This document shows positions 233-27,698 of a stretch of 64,000 bases of DNA, one piece after another. Positions within the stretch are counted from its first letter, which is position 1. Each line of letters starts with the position of its first letter. The stretch covers positions 496,001-560,000 of the forward strand of contig JAIWWG010000005.1 of assembly GCA_025435555.1 (NCBI GenBank), read 5' to 3'. The notes beneath the pieces were generated by a model that ran no database searches, was not told the DNA's origin, and saw only the letters and a program-made list of their open reading frames with translations. The stretch is from Chytriomyces cf. hyalinus JEL632. Taxonomy: Eukaryota; Chytridiomycota; Chytridiomycetes; Chytridiales; Chytriomycetaceae. The position numbers and the translations under genes are program-made.

Positions 233-2374
233 ATGTCAACATACCACACCACCAACTTGGCGCTGGAACCTGCATTCGATGCAAAGCAGGGACTGGTCCT
301 GTCCTGGGAGTCCATGTCCTACTCGCTTGTCGGCAAAGATACCTTTCTCCTTGACAACTTGTCCGGAAGCGTCAGACCCGGCGAGGTGTTGGCTGTCATG
401 GGGCCCTCTGGTGCTGGAAAGTCCACATTCCTGGTTTGTTTATCCTTTTCGCGCTCTTGGTGGAATACAGAACTGATCATTTACTACACAGGATGTGCTT
501 GCAGGACGAAAGGGAAAAGTCGGCACAGTGCATGGACAGATCCTCCTGGGTGGCAGCGAGCGTGAAATGAAAAAGTACTCCTCGTACGTCACGCAGGACG
601 ACAGTCTGATTGGTAGTTTCACTGTGCGTGAGACGCTTCAATGGGCCGTGGAGCTGAACAACGACTGCAAATCGAAGCAGGAGCGAGATGAGAAAGTGAT
701 GGATCTGATGGTGCAGTTTGGACTTGTCAAGGCCGCTGACTCCAAAGTCGGAGACCCGTTTGTGCGTGGGATTTCTGGTGGAGAGAAGCGCCGACTCAGC
801 ATTGCTGTTCAGCTTTGCAAGGAGCCCAAAGTCATCTTCCTAGATGAGCCGACGAGTGGTCTCGATTCTGCGGCGTCCTTCAAGGTTATGGAAGCCATCA
901 AATCTTTGGCGAGAAGAAACGGATGCGTCATCGTGTGCACCATCCATCAGCCAAGCCCCAGCACTTACGAGTTGTTTGACAAGGTTTTGTTCCTGGCTCG
1001 AGGAAAGACCATTTATTTTGGCGCATGTGGCGGTGTTGAGGCAGACTACTTTGAATCTATTGGATTCCCAGTGCCGAAACACGTAAATGTCCCCGACGCG
1101 GTGTTGGACAGTTGAGTTTTTTCCTTCGCCCTAAACTATAACTGTGCTCATGTTAACACGTGCATCTAATAACTTTCCAGCAATCAACGTCGATTTCATT
1201 GGGGACGAGGACATTGCCGACTCTCGAATCAAACAATTTGTTGAATCATGGCGCAATTCGGATAAACAAAGCGCAGTCGTTTCAGAATCAGCACAAATCA
1301 AAAGCGTTTCTGTAAACTCAGCCGATGCTCCCATCGTTGGCAGCGCAGATTACACACACGGCTTCTTCAAGCAAGTGGCCATCCTCGCCCGCAGAAACTT
1401 TAGCAACGCGCTCAAAAACATTTTGCTCTTCTGGGTCCGTCTTGCCATGTACCTTGCCATGGCTGTTCTCATGGGAACTACTTGGTGGCGAATGAGTTTG
1501 AACCAAAACACGGTCCAAGATCGTTTCAGCGCCATTTTCTTTTCGATTGCGTTTTTGGCGTTCATGTCTGTCGCTGGAATTCCTGCTGTTTTGGAGGAGC
1601 GCCAGGTCTTTTACCGCGAGCGCATGAACCGGACTTATTCGGTTGGAGCGTATGTCATTGCCAATACGATTGTTTCGATACCCTTTGTCATGGTCATTGC
1701 GGTTGCATTTACTGTCCCGGCGTACTGGATGATGGGTTCGTATTTGGCTTTGATTACCGCGAATATTTTCGGCAAACTAAATTGACAATATTTGCAGGCA
1801 TGAACGGCGGCGCCGAAAACTTTTTCAGATTCCTCGGGTTCCTGTGGCTTGCATTATATGTCGCAGAGTCGGTTGTTATTCTGCTGTCGTCTATATTCCC
1901 AATCTTTGTTGCTGCTTTGACTTTTGTCAGTTTCTTTAACGGCCTCGAGATGGTGAGCATTTTCTTCTTTGCTCAATCACATCAAATCAGTTTTGCTCAA
2001 TTCTCTTTTTTCACTAGGTAACCCAAGGATACTTTGTCAGACGCCAAAATATTCCCAAATTCTGGTTATACGGCTTCCACTACTGGAACTACCAAAAATG
2101 GTCCTGGGAGGCTCTCATTGCAAACGAATTCACAGGCCTCACATTCCAATGCGCCCCACAATACCGTATGGATCAGAGCGGCGTTTCTTGTTTCTGCGCC
2201 ATCCCATCGAGCTTGGGCCCTGCTTCGTGCACATTCTCTGGCGAGGATGTGATCAAAGAGTACGGGTACGACGACTACAGCTACTGGAAGAGTGCAGTGT
2301 GCCTTGTTGGGCTGATTGTGTTTTTTAGAATCATGTTTTATGTGACTTTGCGTCTCAAGAAGCCCAAGGTGTAG
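233..2374 (+). CDS. ABCG-type half-transporter, copy 1
   Basis: ATP-binding cassette exporter of the ABCG (White) half-size class, expected in the plasma or an internal membrane, where it would work as a dimer. Five exons: 233-433, 492-1110, 1181-1735, 1798-1952, 2018-2374, giving 628 residues. The N-terminal nucleotide-binding domain shows Walker A (GPSGAGKS, about residue 57), the ABC signature (ISGGEKRR), Walker B ([13 protein letters not shown]) and the H-loop (TIHQPS). The C-terminal half is an ABC2-type membrane domain with about six helices and the [11 protein letters not shown] stretch. The order NBD then TMD is diagnostic of ABCG. All five exons align with the paralog at 4323-6475, with introns at the same places. 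The second intron uses the uncommon donor GTTGAG. A short upstream ORF begins at 193. Substrate cannot be told from sequence. Confidence 0.93.
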
Positions 2375-2477
2375 AGAGAGAGAGCCTCTTAATAAACTTT
2401 TCAGAAACTTGGTTCATTTTTTTTATTTCAAGGAAACGTCATGATCGAAAATAAATGGGGTCATTTTTTACGACAAA

Positions 2478-3939
2478 TCACACAAACAAAGCGGAAGAAA
2501 ACAGTCCCAAAAGTGTCATACTGAAGGTTACTCTGTTTGAAAAAGAATTGTTTTTCGAATTTGTGGATGATGAGTTGCTGGTTGGGTTGACCGCGTCTTG
2601 GTCGATTTTGAGAGTGACACCGCCGGGGGGTGGTGGTAAGCTGTTCACTTCCTTGGGCACAAAGTGGTTGCTGGAGTTGGTTAGTGCATTGTACGCCGCT
2701 TGTGCGATAATGGCGTGTCCCTTTGTTGTGGGATGCAAATCATCCCAAAATAGGTACGAGTGCGGATCTGAACAGGGAGTCTTCTTGTCCTCTGACAGGC
2801 ATCTTTGGGAGGAAAATAGAATGAGCGGAGAGAAAAATTGAAGAAAAACCTTTACCTGCTCGAGGTGTTGGTCAGCTCAAACGCCTTCATTCCTTCCGCT
2901 GATGTGCCATAATTAAAGACAGCAGCCGTGTCAAAAATGACGATCGAGACTTTCGGATTATCCGCCTATTTTTGGTTGAGTGTTGTAAGGCTATTGCTTC
3001 ACAAGCTTTTTTTCCTCGCGCGCTTACAGCAATTTTCGAAATGCCTGTGGTCAAAGCTTCATTGAAGGTCGATACGAGTAACTGAAGAATCGACTTGAAC
3101 TGTGCGAATTTGGCAATCGATGGCGTTGCTTCAAGCGGTGGCATCTTCGCAACGAGGATCTTTGTTGCGCCCATCGAGACAAGGCGCGCAACGAACGAAA
3201 CCAGTGTTCCTAAACAAGGCCGTTAGTATGTAAACACACATTAAAAGTACCCCACATCATAGAACCCAAGCAGTACCTGCTATTCCATTTGCATCTGGCA
3301 CTTTTGCAAGCGCCGCTGATTCGAAAAAATCATTGGCACCGCTGAGAACGGTGAAAAGCACGGAACCCAAATCGTTGGCTTGCGCCGCAGTAGTTCCAGT
3401 TCCAGTTTTGCTTGTGTACATTTCAAGTTGTTGCGCAAGGTCCGGAATTCTCACGGTCGAGTTCAAAACTGAGGAGAACAAACCAGCGAGGGCGTTGGAG
3501 CTGTTTGCTGTGGCACCGCCGAATGCGTAATCTTCGAGACTGGCGTTTTGGAGGTATACGGCCAGGTATTCGACCCAGACTGGTCCATCGGAGCTGTGCG
3601 AAGGGGTGTGTTTCAGTGTCATTTCAAATCATGCCAAGTGCCGAATCGAACAGCTTTGCGTTACAATCTGCCGTTGAAGTAGGGAGGCTCTGGATACTTG
3701 TACAATTTGAAGAGGTTGCCGTTGTCGCTCAAGCTGGGCGGTGATTGTCAGTGTTTGCAAGCATTGCGTTGAAGTCAATGACCAAACCTGTCACCAAACG
3801 CAACTACTCTTTTGATGTCCTGCAAGATGACGATAAGAAGACCGTATTAGCAGTAGTAGAGTTGTGTCGCACGCCTCACACTTGGAGAAATAGCCGCATG
3901 CGCCAGGAGGGGCAACAGCATCAGGACGGCGGTGATCAT
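2478..3939 (-). CDS. Secreted GDSL esterase/lipase, probably GPI-anchored
   Basis: SGNH/GDSL serine hydrolase acting outside the cell or on its surface. Seven exons on the minus strand (3880-3939, 3788-3819, 3665-3733, 3277-3593, 3028-3209, 2856-2965, 2478-2802) give 344 residues. It starts with a signal peptide (MITAVLMLLPLLAHA). The catalytic block FGDSLSDNGN is assembled across an intron that splits the Ser codon. Block III (GANDFF) and the C-terminal DDLHPT with the catalytic Asp and His follow. The C-terminus is Ser/Asn rich and ends in a hydrophobic tail (SMTLLGLFSSALFV), the pattern of a GPI-attachment signal. It lies between the two ABCG paralogs in opposite orientation and converges on copy 1. 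Closest type by memory is the fungal thermolabile-hemolysin-like/plant-type GDSL lipase group. Substrate unknown. Confidence 0.88.
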
Positions 3940-4322
3940 TGCTCCCAGATTCCAGATTATTTTTTTTTTTGCTTCTGCGCCAACATGCAGCGTATTTTGA
4001 AGTCCGCCGTCAATCGCCCAGCAGGCACAAGATTGTAAATGGATGAAACTGCGCTTCTTACGTACCTGAACAGCGTACGGCGCAGCAAGATCAAGCGCAG
4101 TCCCGAGATCGTTCTGCCTGTACCCGGTCCACGTCTATCGATGCTGTCCTCGCACTTACGCGTAAGTGGAGCATGATCAGTGCGTAACTTGTTTGACAGA
4201 AGCTGAATGGCAAGACCACGTGATTCCGGTGAATACACCAACAAATTTCGCTGAATAAGCTGATTGGGCCAAGACAAAAATCTGAGAAGCGACACTTCCA
4301 AAAACACAAAAGAAAACGCCCA
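3940..4322. promoter_or_regulatory. Divergent intergenic region between the GDSL esterase and ABCG copy 2
   Basis: 383 bases between two head-to-head genes, so it must hold both promoters. It contains a T-run at 3960-3969 that lies just upstream of the esterase start. Longer open frames here start from non-ATG codons and have no recognisable family. No clear TATA box or operator was identified. Confidence 0.4.
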
Positions 4323-6475
4323 ATGGAAAACTCACCCTTCTTAATGTCCGATTCGGCTGCTCGAGCATCTCAGCCGGCTGCTGTGGACGGCCTCACGCTC
4401 ACCTTCAAGGACCTGTCCTACTCCATCGTTGATCGCACTGGGAAGGAGAGCAAGTACCTTCTTGAGGGAATCTCCGGATGTGTCAAGCCGGGTGAAGTGC
4501 TTGCTGTGATGGGTCCCTCCGGTGCAGGAAAGTCCACCTTCTTGGTATGAGTTGCCCCTTGACCCTTCTCTCGGAAGCTTGACTGATCGAACCTTGGAAA
4601 AAAAACAGGACGTTGTGGCTGGTAGAAAGGGAAAGATTGGCACGCAGCACGGCCAGATTATGCTCGATGGCACAGAACGGCCCATGAAAAAGTACTCGTC
4701 GTACGTCACCCAGAACGATGCTGTCATTGGCTGCTTCACGGTTCGTGAGACCATCATGTGGGCGGTGGAGCTCAACCTGCCCTCTTCAATCACGAAAAGA
4801 GAGCGGCTCGATAAAGTGCAAGAGCTTCTCTCGCAGTTTGGTCTCACAAAATGCGCCGATTCGAAAGTGGGGGATCTTTTAACCCGGGGAATTTCGGGCG
4901 GTGAGAAACGTCGTCTGTCCATCGCCATTCAGCTTGTCAAAGAACCAAAAGTCATTTTTCTGGATGAGCCAACGAGTGGCTTGGACTCTGCCGCTTCTTT
5001 CAAGGTCATGGAAGCCATCAGAGACTTGGCTCGCAGACGAGGATGTACCGTCGTCTGCAGCATCCATCAGCCAAGCCCAAGCACCTACCAGCTGTTTGAT
5101 AAAGTTCTCTTTCTGGCGCGTGGAAGAACAGTGTACTTTGGACCAAACGCAGGCGCCGACGCTGAGTACTTTAAATCCATCGGCCACACCATCCCAACCC
5201 ACGTCAACGTGCCCGATGCAGTTTTGGACTGTGAGTTTATTTATTTTTTGAATCCATGCGTATATTCCTTTGTAAACTTGTGTACGCCTTTTCCGCAGCC
5301 ATCAATGTTGATTTTTTGGGCGACGAAGCACTCGCAAACACGCGCATTGCAAACTTTGATCAATCTTGGAACAGCTCAAGCGCGAAATCTGACCGGCTTG
5401 CAGAAGTCGAAAGGGAAATTGCACTCGCAAAAACAAAGGCGACAGATGTTGCCACCATCATCGGGGGAGGAGACTACACCCACGGCTTTTTCAAGCAAGT
5501 CGGGATTCTCACTCGCAGGAATACGAGTAACGCTCTCAAGAACATTTTGCTCTTTTGGGTTCGCTGCGCCATGTACATTGCCATGGCCATTCTCATGGGA
5601 ACTACGTGGTGGCGCATGAGCTTGAACCAAAACACCGTGCAAGACCGATTCAGCGCCATTTTCTTTTCGATTGCGTTCTTGGCTTTCATGTCTGTCGCTG
5701 GTATTCCGGGAGTTTTGGAAGAACGGGAAGTATTTTACCGTGAAAGACTCAACAGAACCTACTCTGTGGGTGCATACGTTATTGCAAACACGCTTGTGTC
5801 CCTGCCCTTTGTCATGGTCATTGCTATCGCCTTCACTGTTCCAGCCTACTGGATGATGGGTACGTCTGAATTTTGACGCCGTGACCTGAATACTAAGAAC
5901 TACATTTTTGTCAGGAATGAATGGAGGAGCAGCAAACTTTTTCAGGTTCTTGGGATTCTTGTGGTTGGCCTTGTATGTTGCAGAGTCTGTTGTGATCATG
6001 ATCGCTGCAATCTTTCCAATTTTTGTGGCTGCTTTGACACTCGCGAGTTTCTTTAATGGTCTCGAAATGGTGAGTTCCTCAAACGAATCATGCACTCCTG
6101 CCATATTCTGACGTGACTATATTCTTTCAAAAGGTCACGCAAGGATACTTTGTTCGACGTCAAAACATTCCCAGCTTCTGGCTTTACGGATTCCATTACT
6201 GGAACTACCAAAAATGGTCTTGGGAGGCTTTGATTGCAAACGAATTCGTTGGACTTACATTTGAATGTAACCGTGGCCCGAATGACGTGTGTTTCTGCTC
6301 CATTCCGTCAAGCCTGGGATCCAAAGCCTGCACATTTTCAGGAGACGATATTCTGGCCGAGTACGGATACACGGACTACAGTTACTGGAAAAGCGCCGTT
6401 TGCTTGGTGGCTCTCATCCTGTTTTTCCGAATCATCTTCTACGTTACTTTGAGACTCAAGAAACCAAAGGTTTAA
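4323..6475 (+). CDS. ABCG-type half-transporter, copy 2
   Basis: Paralog of the gene at 233-2374 with the same domain order and the same five-exon layout: 4323-4544, 4609-5230, 5299-5859, 5915-6069, 6134-6475, giving 633 residues. Walker A (GPSGAGKS), signature (ISGGEKRR), Walker B ([13 protein letters not shown]) and H-loop (SIHQPS) are intact, followed by the ABC2 membrane domain. The third exon is almost identical in protein sequence to copy 1 through the first helices ([18 protein letters not shown]), while the N-terminus and the loop after the NBD differ. The duplication therefore looks like a tandem event that kept all four introns. Both copies end in LKKPKV followed by stop. Function as an exporter is known for the family; the cargo is not predictable. 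Confidence 0.93.
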
Positions 6476-7807: not shown

Positions 7808-9028
7808 ATGACCACCAAAATCTTTTGTGCGCTCTCCAACAGCGGCAACCTCACCGGTTTTCACGTTGACTTTGACGTGTCGCTCTCTGTTGGAGACCTC
7901 AAGAATGCGATTCATAAGATGAAGGGGATTGCTGGCTCTGCGGAACTCACACTTATCAGGATCTGCAAGGGAGATGTTGGAGGGTTGACCAAAGCCGAAC
8001 TCGAAAGATCACTGGATTTGTTCAAGTCGGACGCGTATCCCAAGTCACGAGAGGGAACAGATGGGGCCAGTCTCATGAGACATGGTGTAACCTTCAAGGT
8101 TTGTTTCACAGGTTCCTCTCCGCTCGTATCCTTAAACTGCTAAGAACAGATCATGAATTTGATGGAGCAAGTGTCTCTATATACGGCATCACTTCCAGCG
8201 AATCTGTATCATGTGCTGGTTCTAGTTGGCATGACGATGAACTGCGCAAATTGCTTGACCGCTTCGTCTAGTTTGAGGAACTGCGCCAAGTGTCACCGTG
8301 CCTCTTACTGTAACAAGCAGTGCCAGGGGCAGCATTGGGGCGTGCATCGTCATATTTGCAAAAAAGGCTACAAGATTGTGACCACTGCCAGCCAGGGCAA
8401 AGTTCTTCAATCGACGGGCGACTTTCAGCCGGGAAATGTGATCTTTCAAGAGAAGCCACTCGTTCTTTTCACCGACAACAACCAATTACTTGTGCAAGTT
8501 TTGAAGTCCGAAGACCTTTACAACGAACTCCTTCAACTGTTCTGCCCTTCGAAGGAGTCATTTGATATCATTCACAATCAAGAGTTCTTCAAGCATATCA
8601 AGGCGCATCCGTTCTTTAGAATTTTATCAATGGATGCATTCAAATACCGGATGTGGATTCCCAACTCAGAAGTGGATGAAACCATTCAAAAGTTGCCAGA
8701 AACCTTGAGAAACAAGAAGGATCCAAGTCTGATACGCCAGATTCTGTTGATTGAAAGATTCAACACGATTGGATTGACATCGCAAAAAGATGGCTTGTTC
8801 AAGGTTGCGTGTAGGGCAGAGCACTCGTGTTCTCCAAACGTGCATTTTATGTGGGATGGCAGCTCATTGAAATGCGTGGCTCTTGAAAGCATACGACAAG
8901 GTCAAAACCTGACATATTCATACTTGCCCGGTGAAATCTTGGAGCGCTCAAAATCGAAGCGCCAACAGCATCTGGTCAAATATTTGTTTTTGTGTCACTG
9001 CGCTAGGTGTGAAAAAGAGAGTTTTTAA
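7808..9028 (+). CDS. CRN-like header fused to MYND zinc finger and SET methyltransferase
   Basis: Two exons (7808-8098 and 8150-9028) give 389 residues. Residues 1 to about 120 resemble the Crinkler N-terminal header: a ubiquitin-like fold with SVGDLKNAI, a segment LTLIRICKGD aligned with the LxLFLAK-KGD region, and a closing NLYHVLVLVG that matches the usual IHVLVxxP end. The intron falls inside this header, so both exons belong together. Then comes a MYND finger (CANC, CAKC, CNKQC, HRHIC, about residues 127-165), then a SET domain: SET-N like GKVLQSTGDFQPGNVIF, the core AEHSCSPNVHF (the NHSCxPN motif with A-E in place of N), LTYSY, and a post-SET CHCARC near the C-terminus. MYND precedes SET instead of lying inside it as in SMYD proteins. 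The header is inferred from memory; MYND and SET are clear. Confidence 0.75.
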
Positions 9029-11695: not shown

Positions 11696-13449
11696 TTAAA
11701 ACAGCTTAAACCAGACACGCTTTGCCCAAGCAGCCATACCCTTTGGCCTGTCCTTCATGGCCTCGTTTTCAGCCTTCTCGGCTTCAGTCTCAATGAGTCT
11801 TCCACTCTCAAAGTCCATTTGGTCGTAGGAAATGAAAGTAAATCCACCCGAGACGAGACCCTTTCCAATGTACATGACAATGAGAAGTGGGATGGTAAAG
11901 TAGATCCACGATTTGTCCAAGAACCACTGCGTGCTGAAAAATTCGGCTTCGTTGGTGCTATTGTAAAACGCAGCAACAAACATGAAGGCAGTCACAAAGG
12001 CACCAATGAACAAGGAAATGTAGTCGGCGTATGGGAAGAAGGGCGCAATGTATGGCAAGTCCTCCATTTTACGACCTTGCGAGAGGTATCCGTACCGGAA
12101 ACGCAAGTGAGTAAACGACATGACCATCCAATTGGCCATGATACCATACGAAATGACACCAGAAAGCCAGTCAAACACTTTGGCAGATCCTTTACCGTCA
12201 CTACCAATTTCAGCAAGGTAAGCAACAGCAACGGCAATCAGGGAAATGACGGTAACAGCCATGACAGAGTTGACTGGAATTCCACGTTTGCTCACTTTGG
12301 CAAACATGGCTGGAGCAGAGCCTTCTTCAGCGAGACGCATGAGTGTACGTGCGCATGCATAGAGAGCAGAGTTTGCGGCGGAGGAAGCGGCAACGATAAT
12401 AACGAGGTTCATAAAGTGCGATGCAAAGCTGATTCCAACGGCTTTGTAGGCGTACACGAAGGGTGACATGGATGATGACTTTTGGACCAAGACTGGAGAG
12501 TCGGTGGGGAGGATGACACCCACGAGGAAGATGGATCCAATGTAGAAGATGAGGATACGCCAGAAGGTACCGTTGATGGCGCGGGGGACAGACATTCTTG
12601 GGTTGGCGGCTTCTCCGGCAGTAAGACCGACGAGTTCGGTACCTCCGTAGGAAAAGAAGGCGGTAGTGAAAGTACCACCAATACGCAAGAACGAGTCAAG
12701 ACCGTCAGATCCAACGATAGCAGGCTTCCAGTTGCGGAATCCAAGGAATCCATCACCGTGACCAACGCCGAACCAGTAGAGAGATCCGATAATCAGGAAG
12801 AGAACGATGGCAAAGATTTTGACAATGCAGAGTACGAATTCAACTTCGGCAAACCCAGTAACGGTGATCAAGTTGACTCCGACAAACGGAAAGACAAAGA
12901 CAAACGACCAAATGTAGGACTTGACGTCTGGGAACCAGAAAGCCATCAGACCAGCGATACCGGCCATTTCCGCAGGGAAAGTTAAGGCCTGAACAGGAGA
13001 GTTGATCAGTTGATGGTCATGTGACATGTAGCACAAAAGAAAACATACCCAGACAAGCCAGTAGTTCCAACCGTTCACGAAACCAAGCGGTTTGTTGACG
13101 AATCGGGTAGGGAATGCAGAGAAGGCTCCTTCGACTGGGAGAAGTGTGGCCATTTCACCAATGCCAGAAGCTACACCGAAAACTTGGAGACCGACAATGG
13201 CAAAGCACAAGAGCGCACCGAGGGGTCCAGACCTTGCAATGGCGCTTCCTGGAGTAGTGTGGATTTCGTTAGACTCGCGGTTATGAAGGGCATGTCAAAG
13301 AACTCACCTGATCGAAGCAAAAGACCCGTTCCAATGGTTCCACCAATGGCGATCATCTCCAAGTGCCTAGCTTGCAGCTTGCGTTGGAGCTGGCCACCAC
13401 CCTCTGGGGTAGTGTGCAGGACTGTTTCCGCTTTTGCGTCTTTGGACAT
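11696..13449 (-). CDS. Amino-acid permease (APC superfamily, fungal AAT type), copy 1
   Basis: Proton-coupled amino-acid importer of the plasma membrane. Three exons (13308-13449, 13049-13248, 11696-12988) give 544 residues with about twelve hydrophobic segments. The first helix carries the substrate motif IGGTIGTGLLLRSG; the family block FSYGGTELVGLTAGEAANPR is present, as is the long cytosolic C-tail. Intron 1 (13249-13307) interrupts the codon after LLLRS; intron 2 (12989-13048) is 60 bases, stop-free and in frame. The start is the ATG of MSKDAKAE, not the upstream TTG. It is a tandem paralog of 15171-16868, which shares intron 2 but lacks intron 1. Substrate range is not predictable. Confidence 0.92.
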
Positions 13450-14481
13450 GAGGGAGGGAGACAAGGTGGTTTGTTTTTTGTTTGTGTGAGAGAGGGGAGG
13501 GGGATAAAAGCCCTTTTTATATGCCCGCGGGTGGCGCTCTTAGCATAATTTTTGTGGTCATTTTTTTGTTGTCATTTCAACCGCCATTAATTTAATCAAA
13601 TTAGCTGTCGCCAAACTGAAACGGAACTGAAACGCCAGCCACTGATTCATTCACTGATCTACTCGCAAACAGTGGCGCACTGGCAAAGTTGTGGGCATCC
13701 ACCACTGGGTGCAAACGTGTTTGCGTGTTGAGAGAACAGCTTGCCTTTGACGTTTTCTTTTGCCATTGACCTGTGCAAGTCACACAAATTTCATTGATTA
13801 AATTCAACGAAAAAAAAGAATTCGTGTGTAACCCCAGTGGCAACCCGAGAAAATAAAAGTCCCCGAGTCTGTTTGCTTTCTGGCGCAAGAGCGAATTACA
13901 ATGAGACTCGCACTTGATAAATCTACGTGATGTGGGGCATTTCTTTCCGACGGTACCTTCTACACCCAGCGTCCGTTTGCACGAAAACGTAAACCAAACC
14001 TTCTTGTTTGTGTTTGTTTGCAATGTCATTCCTGTGGCTGAAATGAATTTTTTATATTTTTCGAGGGTGGGGGTCGAATCCATCGCGTGGGATATCTGTT
14101 TGGAAGAATGTGATCACTGCAGGATTCAACTGGGGGGAGTTTGAGCAATGACGACAAACAGCGTCTCCTTTTGCAACTGCCAGTCTATCGAAGTGAGGGA
14201 CCCCATGAGTTGAGTTGAGGACCCTTATAAGGGTCCCTGTTATCGGTCGGTCAAAAAAATTGGCCAATTTTAATCGTAATAATGAAGAGCGAGCAATGAA
14301 TGCAAAACAAGGTTTCATTGCACGCCACAAAATGAAGGAATGAGCAACGCCGGGGTCATAATGACTTTGCAACGAAGTCTCCGCATCAGTCCATCCATCC
14401 ATCCCACCCGCAATTGACGCCACAAGGTAATTTTTTAATCATTCGGGCGTCGAAAAAGAGTCCAATTTTATATTCAATTTT

Positions 14482-14505
14482 ACTCACTCACTCACTCACT
14501 CACTC
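14482..14505. repeat. (ACTC)n microsatellite
   Basis: Six perfect ACTC units in the spacer between the permease genes. Likely a simple slippage repeat; no function visible. Confidence 0.9.
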
Positions 14506-14567
14506 GCATGCTCGGTACATCGACATTCAATGTCTTGGATTCCTCTTTTCTTGCATTGTTGTGAGTC

Positions 14568-14602
<35 letters not shown>

Positions 14603-14603
14603 G
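14568..14603. repeat. (ACAG)n microsatellite
   Basis: About nine ACAG units. A second shorter ACAG run lies at 14676-14697, separated by AT-rich sequence with repeated AATAAAAA words. Confidence 0.9.
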
Positions 14604-15170
14604 TGTTGAAATAAAAATAAAAATATTACGAAAATAAAAAGATTACGAAAATAAAAAAAGCTGTCTTGCACCAAACACACAGACAGACAGACAGACACCC
14701 ATCTCCTCCTTTTTTTGTATACCCAAACAGATATTCAAGCTGAATGACACTTGGCCATAATCCCAAACACCATAACTAAACCATGGCTGATCTGGGATTA
14801 GTCCCACTGAGAGAATGACCTGCAACAATCGTTTCTGCTATCCCTGTCACTGCCCCAAAATAAAATAGGAGCATTCGGCGTTAGTCACGTACTGTTCTAC
14901 TGATCTCTATCGATATCCCGTTCATCTCCATTGATCACCTTCTTTGTTCACACGATCACATTGGATTGAATTGGTTCAGGAGAAGACGAGTCAGAATAGC
15001 ATAATCAGCCGCGCTATTTTTGTGATATCAACACATCTTTTTATTTCTTACTTAAACACCCCCCCAACTATATCATGAATGTACACCAATAAAACACGAG
15101 GCCCACACGTAGAAGACAGACCGCCGAATTCTAAAAAATCGTCTGCTTTGATCCACAGCTGTTCTTTCAT

Positions 15171-16868
15171 TTAGAAGAGCTTGAACCAGATACGCTTGGC
15201 CCATTCTTGACCGTTCCTTGGCTTCTGCTTGAGAGCTTCGTTCTCGGCAATTTCCTCGGCAGTCTCAATCAACTTTCCAGTCTCAAAGTCCATCTGGTCG
15301 TAAGGAATGAATCCAAACCCGTTAGGAGACGTTGCTGCCTTGACGACGTAGCAGGCAATCAAGAGTGGGATGGTGAAGTAGATCCACGAGTTGTCCAGGA
15401 ACCATTGAGTGTTGTAAAACTCGGGGTCGTTGGTGCTGTTGTAGAAGGCAGACACAAAGATGAAGGCAGTCACGAACGCTCCGATAGTGAGAGCAACGTA
15501 GTCGGCGTATGGGAAGAATGGAGCAATGTATGGGAGGTCTTCAATCTTTCTGCCTTGGGCAACGTATCCGTGACGGAAACGCAAGTGAGTGAAGGACATG
15601 GCCATCCAGTTGACCATGATTCCGTAAGAAATGACACCAGAAAGCCAGTCAAAGACCTTGGCGGATCCCTTTCCATCGGCAAGGTCGGCAATGTAAGCAC
15701 CGGCAACAGAGATGACGGAGATGACGGTAACGGCCATGACAGAGTTGACTGGGATTCCCTTGGCGTTGACTCTTGCAAACATGGATGGAGCAGAACCTTC
15801 TTCAGCGAGACGCATGAGGGTACGGGAGCAGGCGTAGAGGGAAGAGTTTGCGGCAGAGGAAGCGGCAACGATAATGACAAAGTTCATCATGTGGGAGGCA
15901 AAGCTGATACCGACGGCCTTGTAAGCGTACACGAAGGGAGACATGGAGGCAGACTTTTGGGTCAAGATTGGGGAGTCGGGTGGGAGAATCAAACCGACAA
16001 CAAAGATGGCACCAATGTAGAAGATGATGATACGCCAGAAGGTACCGTTGATGGCACGGGGAACAGACTTTCTTGGGTTGGCAGCTTCACCGGCAGTAAG
16101 ACCGACAAGTTCGGTACCTCCGTACGAGAAGAAGGCAGTGGTGAAGGTACCACCGATACGAAGGAACGAGTCAAGACCGTCAGTTCCAACAATGGCTGGG
16201 CTCCAGTTACGGAATCCGAGGAAACCACCACTGTGACCAACACCGAACCAGTAAAGAGTTCCAACAATGATGAAGAGAACAATCGCAATGATCTTGACGA
16301 TACAGAGGACAAACTCAACCTCAGCAAATCCAGTGACGGCAATCAGATTCACTCCGACGAAGGGAATGATGTACACGAATGACCAAATCCATGACTTGAC
16401 GTCTGGGAACCAGAAGGCCATGAGGACAGCGATGGCGGACATTTCTGCGGGGAAAGTGAGAGCCTGTTTAAAAAAAAAATTGGGTCGTTAGGACTGGGTT
16501 GAATTGATCCCCCATGAAATTCAATTTACCCAAAGGAGCCAGTAGTTCCATCCGTTGAAGAAACCCATGGCCTTGTTGACGAAGCGGGTTGGCATGGCAG
16601 AGAAAGCACCCTCGACTGGGAGGAGAGTGGCCATTTCACCAATTCCGGATGCAACACCAAAGACTTGGAGACCGACAATGGCAAAGCAGATGAGAGCACC
16701 GATAGGACCGGACTTTGCAATGGCACCACCGGATCTAAGCAAGAGACCGGTTCCGATAGTTCCACCGATGGCAATCATTTCCAAGTGCCTGGCCTGGAGC
16801 TTACGCTGCAGCTGGCCACCTTCAGGGGCAGTGTGGAGAACAGTTGGGTCCTTGGTATCTTTGGACAT
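15171..16868 (-). CDS. Amino-acid permease (APC superfamily, fungal AAT type), copy 2
   Basis: Paralog of the permease at 11696-13449 with the same twelve-helix layout. Two exons (16530-16868 and 15171-16463) give 543 residues. The motifs IGGTIGTGLLLRSG, FSYGGTELVGLTAGEAANPR and the PEFYNTQWFLDNSW loop are shared with copy 1. The single intron (16464-16529) matches intron 2 of copy 1; the position of intron 1 of copy 1 is continuous coding here (RSGGAIAKSG). C-ending codons are frequent (GTC, ATC, TCC), suggesting stronger expression than most neighbours. Likely an amino-acid/proton symporter in the plasma membrane. Confidence 0.93.
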
Positions 16869-26167: not shown

Positions 26168-27698
26168 TCAAAAAGTAAATGGAGAGTTCGGATCGACTTT
26201 GTGACCGCAGCTAAGTTGCGGTATTTGGCTGTACTGTCCTTGCATGAAACCTCGCAAGCTGGCCAGCAGCATTTCAAACGAAAGCCCTTGAGGATACTGC
26301 TTTAGCGTGCTCAAGAGCGCGTGCGTCAACGCCCCTGCGGCACGTCCATTGAAACTTGTGTCTGCACTTGTTTGCTCGTCTTGGCATCCAGAAATACAAT
26401 AAGCTTCCTTCATGCCGTCTTGCTGGGATTGAGCAAAATTCTCTTGTTTGTATCCATGCTGATCTGTTTGAGGACCGCTTCCTGTCACTGCGTTAAAGAG
26501 CGATTTCGCCTCGCCCATCAAGCCTTTTGCGTTTCTGAAGTTGCCGTTCAAAAGTTGTTGTGCGCTCATGGCCAGCTGCAGGCCTCTCTTGACAAGCTGG
26601 ACAGTGTCCATGTGTCCATTCGCGTCTGGTCGATAAGTGAATGGGAGTTCGAGCAAAGTACCACTGTGGCAGCAGTCAAGAATCACATTGAGGCGAACCC
26701 CAAGAGGTAGCGCAGTCACAAGACAACGATGCAGGTGTGTACTGTCGATTTGCCCGGCTCTTTCAAAATCAAGAGGGCAAATTGTGTCATCAAGTCCATT
26801 CTCACGCTCTTGACCCAAGTCTTCGGTTTGTCCACCGTGTCCTAATTTTCAAAGCAAGAATGCATGCTGAGCAGCAATCCATCGCAATCCTTCGCAGGAA
26901 ATGCAGTGAGATGAGAAAAGAAGGAATCCTCACCTGAATAACTCAGGAAAAGCACATCACCCGGTCGAGCGTCATGAACCAACCAATAGAATGCGTCAAG
27001 AAGGTTTTTCGTTGTGGGCATATTTTGAGGCACGGACGCTTCTCGCGGCTCATCGACCATGACACGCATGTGGTTTGGATCAGGCGAGTAGTTTTTGTTG
27101 GTGACGAGGTACTCCCTGAGATTATATGCATCATTGACGCAGCCTGAAAGACAGATTCATTAGCAAGCTTTGTACAGAAAAAGCATCAAGCAAGCGTTTT
27201 TTGGTTTGCACCTGCAAGGGCAGATCTGGTTCCGGTATAGTTGATCCCAATGAGTAATGCCTTCTTCCGCCCAGATGGTTGGAACGGCATGCCATACGGA
27301 TACATTTGCTGTTGAGTGTTTGGAGTCATGTTCATGGGTGGAGCCCCTTGGATGGGTGGCGCCGGGACACCCATTGGGCCAGCAGGCATCGGTGGGGTCC
27401 ACTGGGTCTGTCCCGTTTGGGTGTTGGCGTAAAAGTACGTCTTGTATTGAGTGCTCCATTGCGCAATCCAGCCGGGAGGGAGCTGTGGCTGGGCTGGCTG
27501 CGGCTGTTGGTACTGCGGTTGGGGAGGACCTTGCTGGTATTGCGGTTGATAGGGCTGTTGAGGCGGGTACTGCTGCTGGGAAGGGTACTGCTGTTGCTGG
27601 TGGTATTGTCCTGGGTAGCCAGAGAACTGCTGCTGTTGTTGCTGCTGCGGGGGGGCCACTACCGTCCCAAGTAGGTCCTTCAGAAACTTAGTGCTCAT
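26168..27698 (-). CDS. Type I metacaspase with N-terminal WW domain
   Basis: Calcium-dependent Arg/Lys-specific cysteine peptidase (clan CD, C14) involved in proteostasis and cell death in fungi. Exons 27212-27698, 26934-27143 and 26168-26841 give 456 residues. The N-terminus is a Gln/Pro/Tyr-rich prodomain with QYPxQ repeats, followed by a WW domain (LPPGWIAQW...TGQTQWTPP, about residues 74-103). The peptidase starts at KKALLIGINYTGT; the catalytic His is in YSGHGG, formed across the second intron, and the catalytic Cys in LDCCHSGT. The region between the p20 and p10 parts carries the usual insertion, and the p10 end has GALTHALL. Both splice junctions restore conserved family sequence (SALAGCVNDAYNL and SYSGHGGQTED). 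Confidence 0.94.

Follow-up and report, generated by a model that had tools for sequence, protein, structure and literature searches.

The gene described here lies in a window of 64,000 nucleotides (the whole stretch of DNA that was analysed) from the chytrid Chytriomyces cf. hyalinus JEL632. It occupies positions 7808-9028 of the plus strand, sits about mid-way along a 901-kb contig and encodes a protein of 389 amino acids, in which a Crinkler-type header is followed by a MYND zinc finger and a SET domain (Table 1). The exons were searched separately against Pfam. The coordinates, the intron and the domain order are those put forward in a preliminary description of the locus. The reading frame of exon 2 is open from end to end and has an ATG of its own at 8153, where the database record P0001 begins, a record that corresponds to the second exon alone. 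No second close copy of the gene was found in the JEL632 genome.

The upstream flank holds ABC transporter ORFs (495-5876, plus strand), which form two similar sets. On the other flank, the gene of ribosomal protein S3 is accompanied by those of a Sir2-family protein and an amino-acid permease. Two similar permease ORFs lie at window positions 11699-16442 on the minus strand, of which the first is an amino-acid permease according to Pfam and the second was recognized by eye only. An ORF at 26168-26818 on the minus strand contains the motif DCCHSG and presumably resembles a metacaspase.

Table 1. Features of the header-MYND-SET gene (window positions)
Feature	Position	Strand	Basis and remarks
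Exon 1	7808..8098	+	97 codons, Crinkler-type header up to residue 97
Intron	8099..8149	+	51 nt, GT..AG, phase 0, at FK^[IV]MN
Exon 2	8150..9028	+	292 codons, stop included
Header tail, comprising its final helix and strand	8150..8227	+	33.4 bits, profile positions 112-137
HVLVLVG, payload-junction motif HVLVxxP with P replaced by G	8210..8230	+	Header alignment; junction role according to section 5 of PMC5289972
MYND zinc finger	8243..8359	+	Pfam PF01753, E=1.6e-8, above cut-off; own-genome search C188:504243-504359
GKV at the GxG place	8396..8404	+	Other JEL632 SET ORFs: GRH, GKG, GLG, GRC
SET domain, downstream of MYND	8402..8923	+	Pfam PF00856, E=2e-6, above cut-off, profile 3-104 of 105
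EHSCSPN at the NHSCxPN place, Asn replaced by Glu	8819..8839	+	Sequence comparison
Tyrosine of TYSYLP	8921..8923	+	Aligned to SY of SMYD2
Post-SET zinc cysteines CHCARC, preceded by KYLFL	8993..9010	+	Aligned to SMYD2 YFFTCECQEC

Exon 1 matches the Pfam Crinkler family PF20147 with E=3.2e-4 and 21.8 bits, which is below the curated cut-off of 24.6, and the gene is not among the 13 matches above this cut-off in the JEL632 genome. Since the score falls under the cut-off, independent support was needed. To this end, a profile was made from nine headers of other chytrid genera (two of them partial), with C. hyalinus excluded. Exon 1 scored 103.9 bits at profile positions 1-92 and the 26 residues that open exon 2 scored 33.4 bits at positions 112-137, and thus the two exons continue one domain in the correct order. 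The best of 2,000 shuffled versions of exon 1, the only part that was shuffled, reached 7.9 bits, and among the 1,640 ORFs of the window none except the two holding these exons exceeded 5.3 bits.

Further searches point in the same direction. Used as a query, exon 1 finds headers in the JEL632 genome with E-values down to 4e-8 (residues 4-84 of 97), and two header queries from other genera have the gene as their top match there (E=4.2e-30 and 1.8e-26). When the header region of P0002, a C. hyalinus protein that carries the same header, served as the query of a protein search, 13 proteins were listed; the 11 besides P0002 and the gene's own ORF come from Entophlyctis, Siphonaria and Rhizoclosmatium, show identities of up to 68% and include many partial records. 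The PF20147 cut-off is passed by profile relatives such as P0005 (E=4e-10), and all NCBIfam matches are far below their cut-off. Judged by these alignments, the first 120 or so residues are homologous to known Crinkler headers in their chytrid form, as had been proposed.

The motifs originally read into the header were recovered in part. The place of LxLFLAK is recognizable as LTLIRICKG, and the chytrid relatives mostly read LTLVRI, but the literal LxLFLAK is absent. The HVLV-type end is present with a glycine as its last residue; the final proline is kept in eight of ten aligned headers, and the remaining two, P0011 and P0002, have leucine and glycine, respectively. HVLVxxP ends Crinkler headers and is described in section 5 of PMC5289972 as a recombination point. 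A phmmer alignment to SMYD2 offered another identity for the header tail, namely a piece of the N-terminal SET part of SMYD proteins; this was rejected, since these residues align with header positions 112-137 at 33.4 bits and the SET match follows the MYND finger. Viral relatives were also sought: pattern scans of viral contigs with two alignments, which require near-exact peptides, gave 25 and 113 matches, and by tblastn none of these proved to be a relative.

The predicted fold of the header agrees with the ubiquitin-like fold suggested earlier. The model, computed for P0002, contains a helix at residues 105-113 and a strand at 122-125. Foldseek returned 1,027 matches at E<=10 and none at E<=0.001 for this model, and the fold assignment draws on a second look with VIA-align at the highest-ranked Foldseek chains, in which PB1 domains were the top structural matches. 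With moderate confidence, the header is therefore predicted to adopt a PB1/ubiquitin-like fold.

The intron that interrupts the header belongs to the family rather than to this gene alone. A script searched the gene and 23 other header loci of the JEL632 genome for a GT..AG intron that directly follows [FY]K or a similar pair and stands ahead of [VIL]M. The strict pass recovered the intron in the gene and in 11 of the other loci; a relaxed pass on the remaining 12 added three (L033, L037 and L038), produced one false match (L051) and left eight without it. The phase-0 place (FK^VMN) is thus common to 14 of the 23 other loci, which upholds the view that an intron inside the header speaks against an artefactual fusion; in nine of the 23, neither pass found an intron at the family place. 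The survey omits four places of the genome-wide merge of 27 header places given below (C134, one on C192, C200 and C231) and includes C223, which lies outside that merge. Some of the surveyed loci have stops at or shortly past HVLV and may be decayed. In Entophlyctis luteolus, the protein P0010 ends in FKVCVIPRYLRGN, as though reading into the shared header intron, and its gene model accordingly looks cut short.

The join between header and MYND finger recurs in Chytriomyces hyalinus. The protein HDU77_007416 (P0002, 276 amino acids) comprises the same header followed by the same MYND finger at 79-81% identity (79/100 identities to exon 1 and 124/153 to the beginning of exon 2), and at the protein level the annotated sequence reads FKVMN across the intron place. 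Pfam detects the MYND finger with E=1.9e-8 and the Crinkler header with E=9.3e-5, just under the cut-off. After about residue 254 the annotated tail departs from the SET frame, and the last residues of the stretch 254-276 match another frame of the SET-coding DNA of the JEL632 gene; related SET-coding DNA is therefore present in C. hyalinus. A predicted intron or mis-annotation, an error in sequencing or a genuine frameshift may account for the departure. Of the header-MYND-SET order that had been suggested for a search in other chytrids, the header-MYND part was hence found in C. hyalinus, and the annotated protein does not confirm the SET part.

The payload starts directly behind the junction. 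The MYND match begins four residues past HVLVLVG, and within exon 2 the MYND finger (residues 32-70) precedes the whole SET domain (residues 85-258). Relatives in the PDB are SMYD2, SMYD3 and the apical complex lysine methyltransferase. Both tyrosine places of the SET domain, one of which (TYSYLP) is that of the catalytic tyrosine, are retained together with the CxCxxC cysteines. The activity of the domain is uncertain, since NHSC reads EHSC and GxG, the SAM-site motif, reads GKV; judging by these residues, the domain may bind SAM weakly or no longer at all, and we regard it as an altered SET domain that possibly still works. The GxG place reads GKF in C. hyalinus. Of the four other SET ORFs of JEL632 in which the motif could be placed, two have another residue instead of the second glycine (GRH and GRC) and two keep it (GKG and GLG), with one further ORF unplaced. 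The asparagine of NHSC is kept in all five other SET ORFs compared, and a sixth, L078, outside that comparison, has glutamine (QHSC). An AlphaFold model of exon 2, based on two sequences, has a mean pLDDT of 33.6, too low to be of use.

The JEL632 genome contains at least 27 header places, including this gene, as merged by hand from the stronger rows; with rows of lower strength (C223, for instance) excluded, the figure is a lower bound. These places lie on contigs C13, C192, C229, C5, C17 and others, several of them in groups; some have stops directly past HVLV, and others continue into P-loop-like ORFs. At locus L041, long repetitive ORFs of the GGLAMDTATAQSADTVGALP type begin at about 2780, downstream of a Crinkler-header place. 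Genome-wide, there are 29 SET and 20 MYND match rows, and near the 27 header places only those of the present gene occur, the next nearest SET or MYND row being 57 kb away from any of them. Ten ORFs downstream of JEL632 header loci gave weak P-loop-type matches in four cases, all below cut-off, and neither MYND nor SET. Ten header relatives were scanned for payloads, with P0004, nearly a header only, omitted: P0003 and P0007 carry HNH_2, P0005 and P0006 show a weak AAA match under the cut-off and a Walker-A-like sequence, and none of the ten has MYND or SET at E<=0.1. One type of header hence stands before several payloads, namely HNH_2, Walker-A-like sequence, MYND (P0002) and MYND-SET (the gene at 7808-9028).

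Exon 1 is identical to the header of P0003, an HNH_2 protein of Entophlyctis, in 62 of 97 residues (64%), and to the eleven headers compared from its own genome in 28-38%. In a tree of 20 taxa, from which three of 14 own-genome loci were dropped as no ORF had been picked, the two MYND headers pair and are split from the rest with support of 100. Together with P0003-P0007, which include HNH_2 and P-loop types, they are split off with support of 83, and their exact position next to P0003 and P0005 has weak support (38 and 55). Since close Entophlyctis relatives of the header carry HNH nuclease payloads, MYND-SET is best understood as a payload swap at the HVLVxxP junction, and the MTM that follows HVLVLVG may be the start of a former MYND-SET gene. 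Protein searches for the source of MYND-SET, which required shared 5-residue words, returned only the gene's own ORF and C. hyalinus (two of 290 candidates at E<=0.001, one of nine at E<=0.05); given this requirement, the result does not imply that other MYND-SET relatives are absent.

In summary, the gene probably encodes a genuine Crinkler-type modular protein with an exchanged payload, in which a PB1/ubiquitin-like header joined at HVLVxxP to MYND-SET would address the latter. This reading builds on the demonstrated homology of the header, on the intron place that it shares with other loci, on the occurrence of the header-MYND join in two species and on the differing payloads behind closely related headers. 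In other chytrids the header carries HNH nucleases or probable P-loop ATPases, for which MYND-SET would have been swapped in here. From what is known of the family, the header would be the addressing or docking part that guides MYND-SET to its site of action, for which a nucleus is the likeliest candidate, be it in the cell of another organism or in the chytrid's own. Going by domain content, the MYND finger would bind a partner, and the SET domain would methylate lysines of this partner or of chromatin. Counted against this reading are the sub-cut-off PF20147 score of exon 1 and the absence of the gene from the 13 Pfam matches, the nine loci in which no such intron was found, the P0002 tail, the possible impairment of SAM binding, the lack of a Foldseek match at E<=0.001 for the header model and the low pLDDT of the exon 2 model.

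A serious contender, with chances approaching even, is that the protein is a domesticated internal regulator, whose header serves as a PB1/ubiquitin-like interaction domain and which acts within the chytrid's own cells, no transfer being involved. PB1 domains, which head the structural matches of the header model, are intracellular scaffolding modules, and MYND-SET proteins are ordinary eukaryotic regulators. The gene has no close second copy and resides between ABC transporter ORFs and the ribosomal protein S3 gene, in contrast to several other header places, which are grouped on C13, C192, C229 and C5. Yet in the tree its header falls together with headers of HNH_2 proteins, payloads that section 11 of PMC5289972 regards as conflict effectors. 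We are more doubtful that the payload is a dead enzyme, that is, a SET domain devoid of SAM binding and acting as a protein-binding decoy, or part of a decaying gene. The substitutions EHSC and GKV and the annotated C. hyalinus protein leaving the SET frame would fit this idea; however, replacements of the second GxG glycine and of the NHSC asparagine also occur in other SET ORFs of the genome, the tyrosine places and zinc cysteines are kept, and exon 2 is open throughout. A misjoining of two adjacent genes, one coding for a header alone and the other for a separate MYND-SET protein, would agree with the ATG at 8153 and the start of P0001, but was rejected as highly improbable, because exon 2 encodes the final 26 header residues in frame with MYND, the intron is at the shared place and the same join is annotated in C. 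hyalinus.

According to section 11 of PMC5289972, Crinkler C-termini are held to derive from proteins of prokaryotes, for the most part nucleases that have ATPase or kinase partners, and PMC5364385 reports for four other chytrids few Crinklers with signal peptides, calling them enigmatic and giving them no ascribed function. The literature searched, which conveys the domain list of Zhang et al. 2016 only via PMC5289972, yielded no description of a Crinkler with MYND or SET, and one co-mention of Crinkler and MYND was dismissed as a coincidence within a table. MYND-SET appears to be a new payload for the known modular Crinkler family. We regard it as unlikely that the protein is, beyond this, the first Crinkler with a eukaryotic chromatin-type lysine methyltransferase payload, whose header takes a MYND-SET writer into nuclei of prey, substrate or competitor cells; if true, the header would be a general carrier for eukaryotic regulatory enzymes, beyond prokaryote-derived nucleases. 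The occurrence of MYND-SET behind a closely related header would mean that eukaryotic chromatin-type enzymes, too, can be attached at the junction. Lysine methylation would be an easily measured biochemical read-out of such a payload for finding out what the headers of Crinklers do in chytrids, and the shared header intron may help to improve gene models of chytrid Crinklers.

Among known methyltransferases, the apical complex lysine methyltransferase (PDB 6fnd), presumably without a Crinkler header, aligns in its SET domain with residues 80-287 of P0001 (E=5.1e-9). SMYD2 and SMYD3 share with the gene product the MYND finger, the SET core, HSCxPN, the SY tyrosine and the CxCxxC post-SET cysteines. 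In SMYD proteins the MYND finger is inserted inside the SET domain and a C-terminal helical domain is present, whereas here MYND precedes the whole SET domain, a Crinkler header stands in front and the protein ends directly after the post-SET cysteines; moreover, NHSCxPN and GxG are replaced by EHSCSPN and GKV. The Entophlyctis HNH_2 proteins HDU84_000556 and HDU82_003882 (both of them partial records), to which exon 1 is 64% and 55% identical, have an HNH endonuclease at the place taken here by MYND-SET. In contrast to a strict oomycete CRN effector, the gene has LTLIRIC instead of a literal LxLFLAK. With the chytrid subgroup of the Crinkler/CRN family (CR, PF20147), it has in common the header sequence, the predicted ubiquitin-like topology, the HVLV-type end, the place of the intron and a payload right after the junction, which in this gene is MYND-SET.
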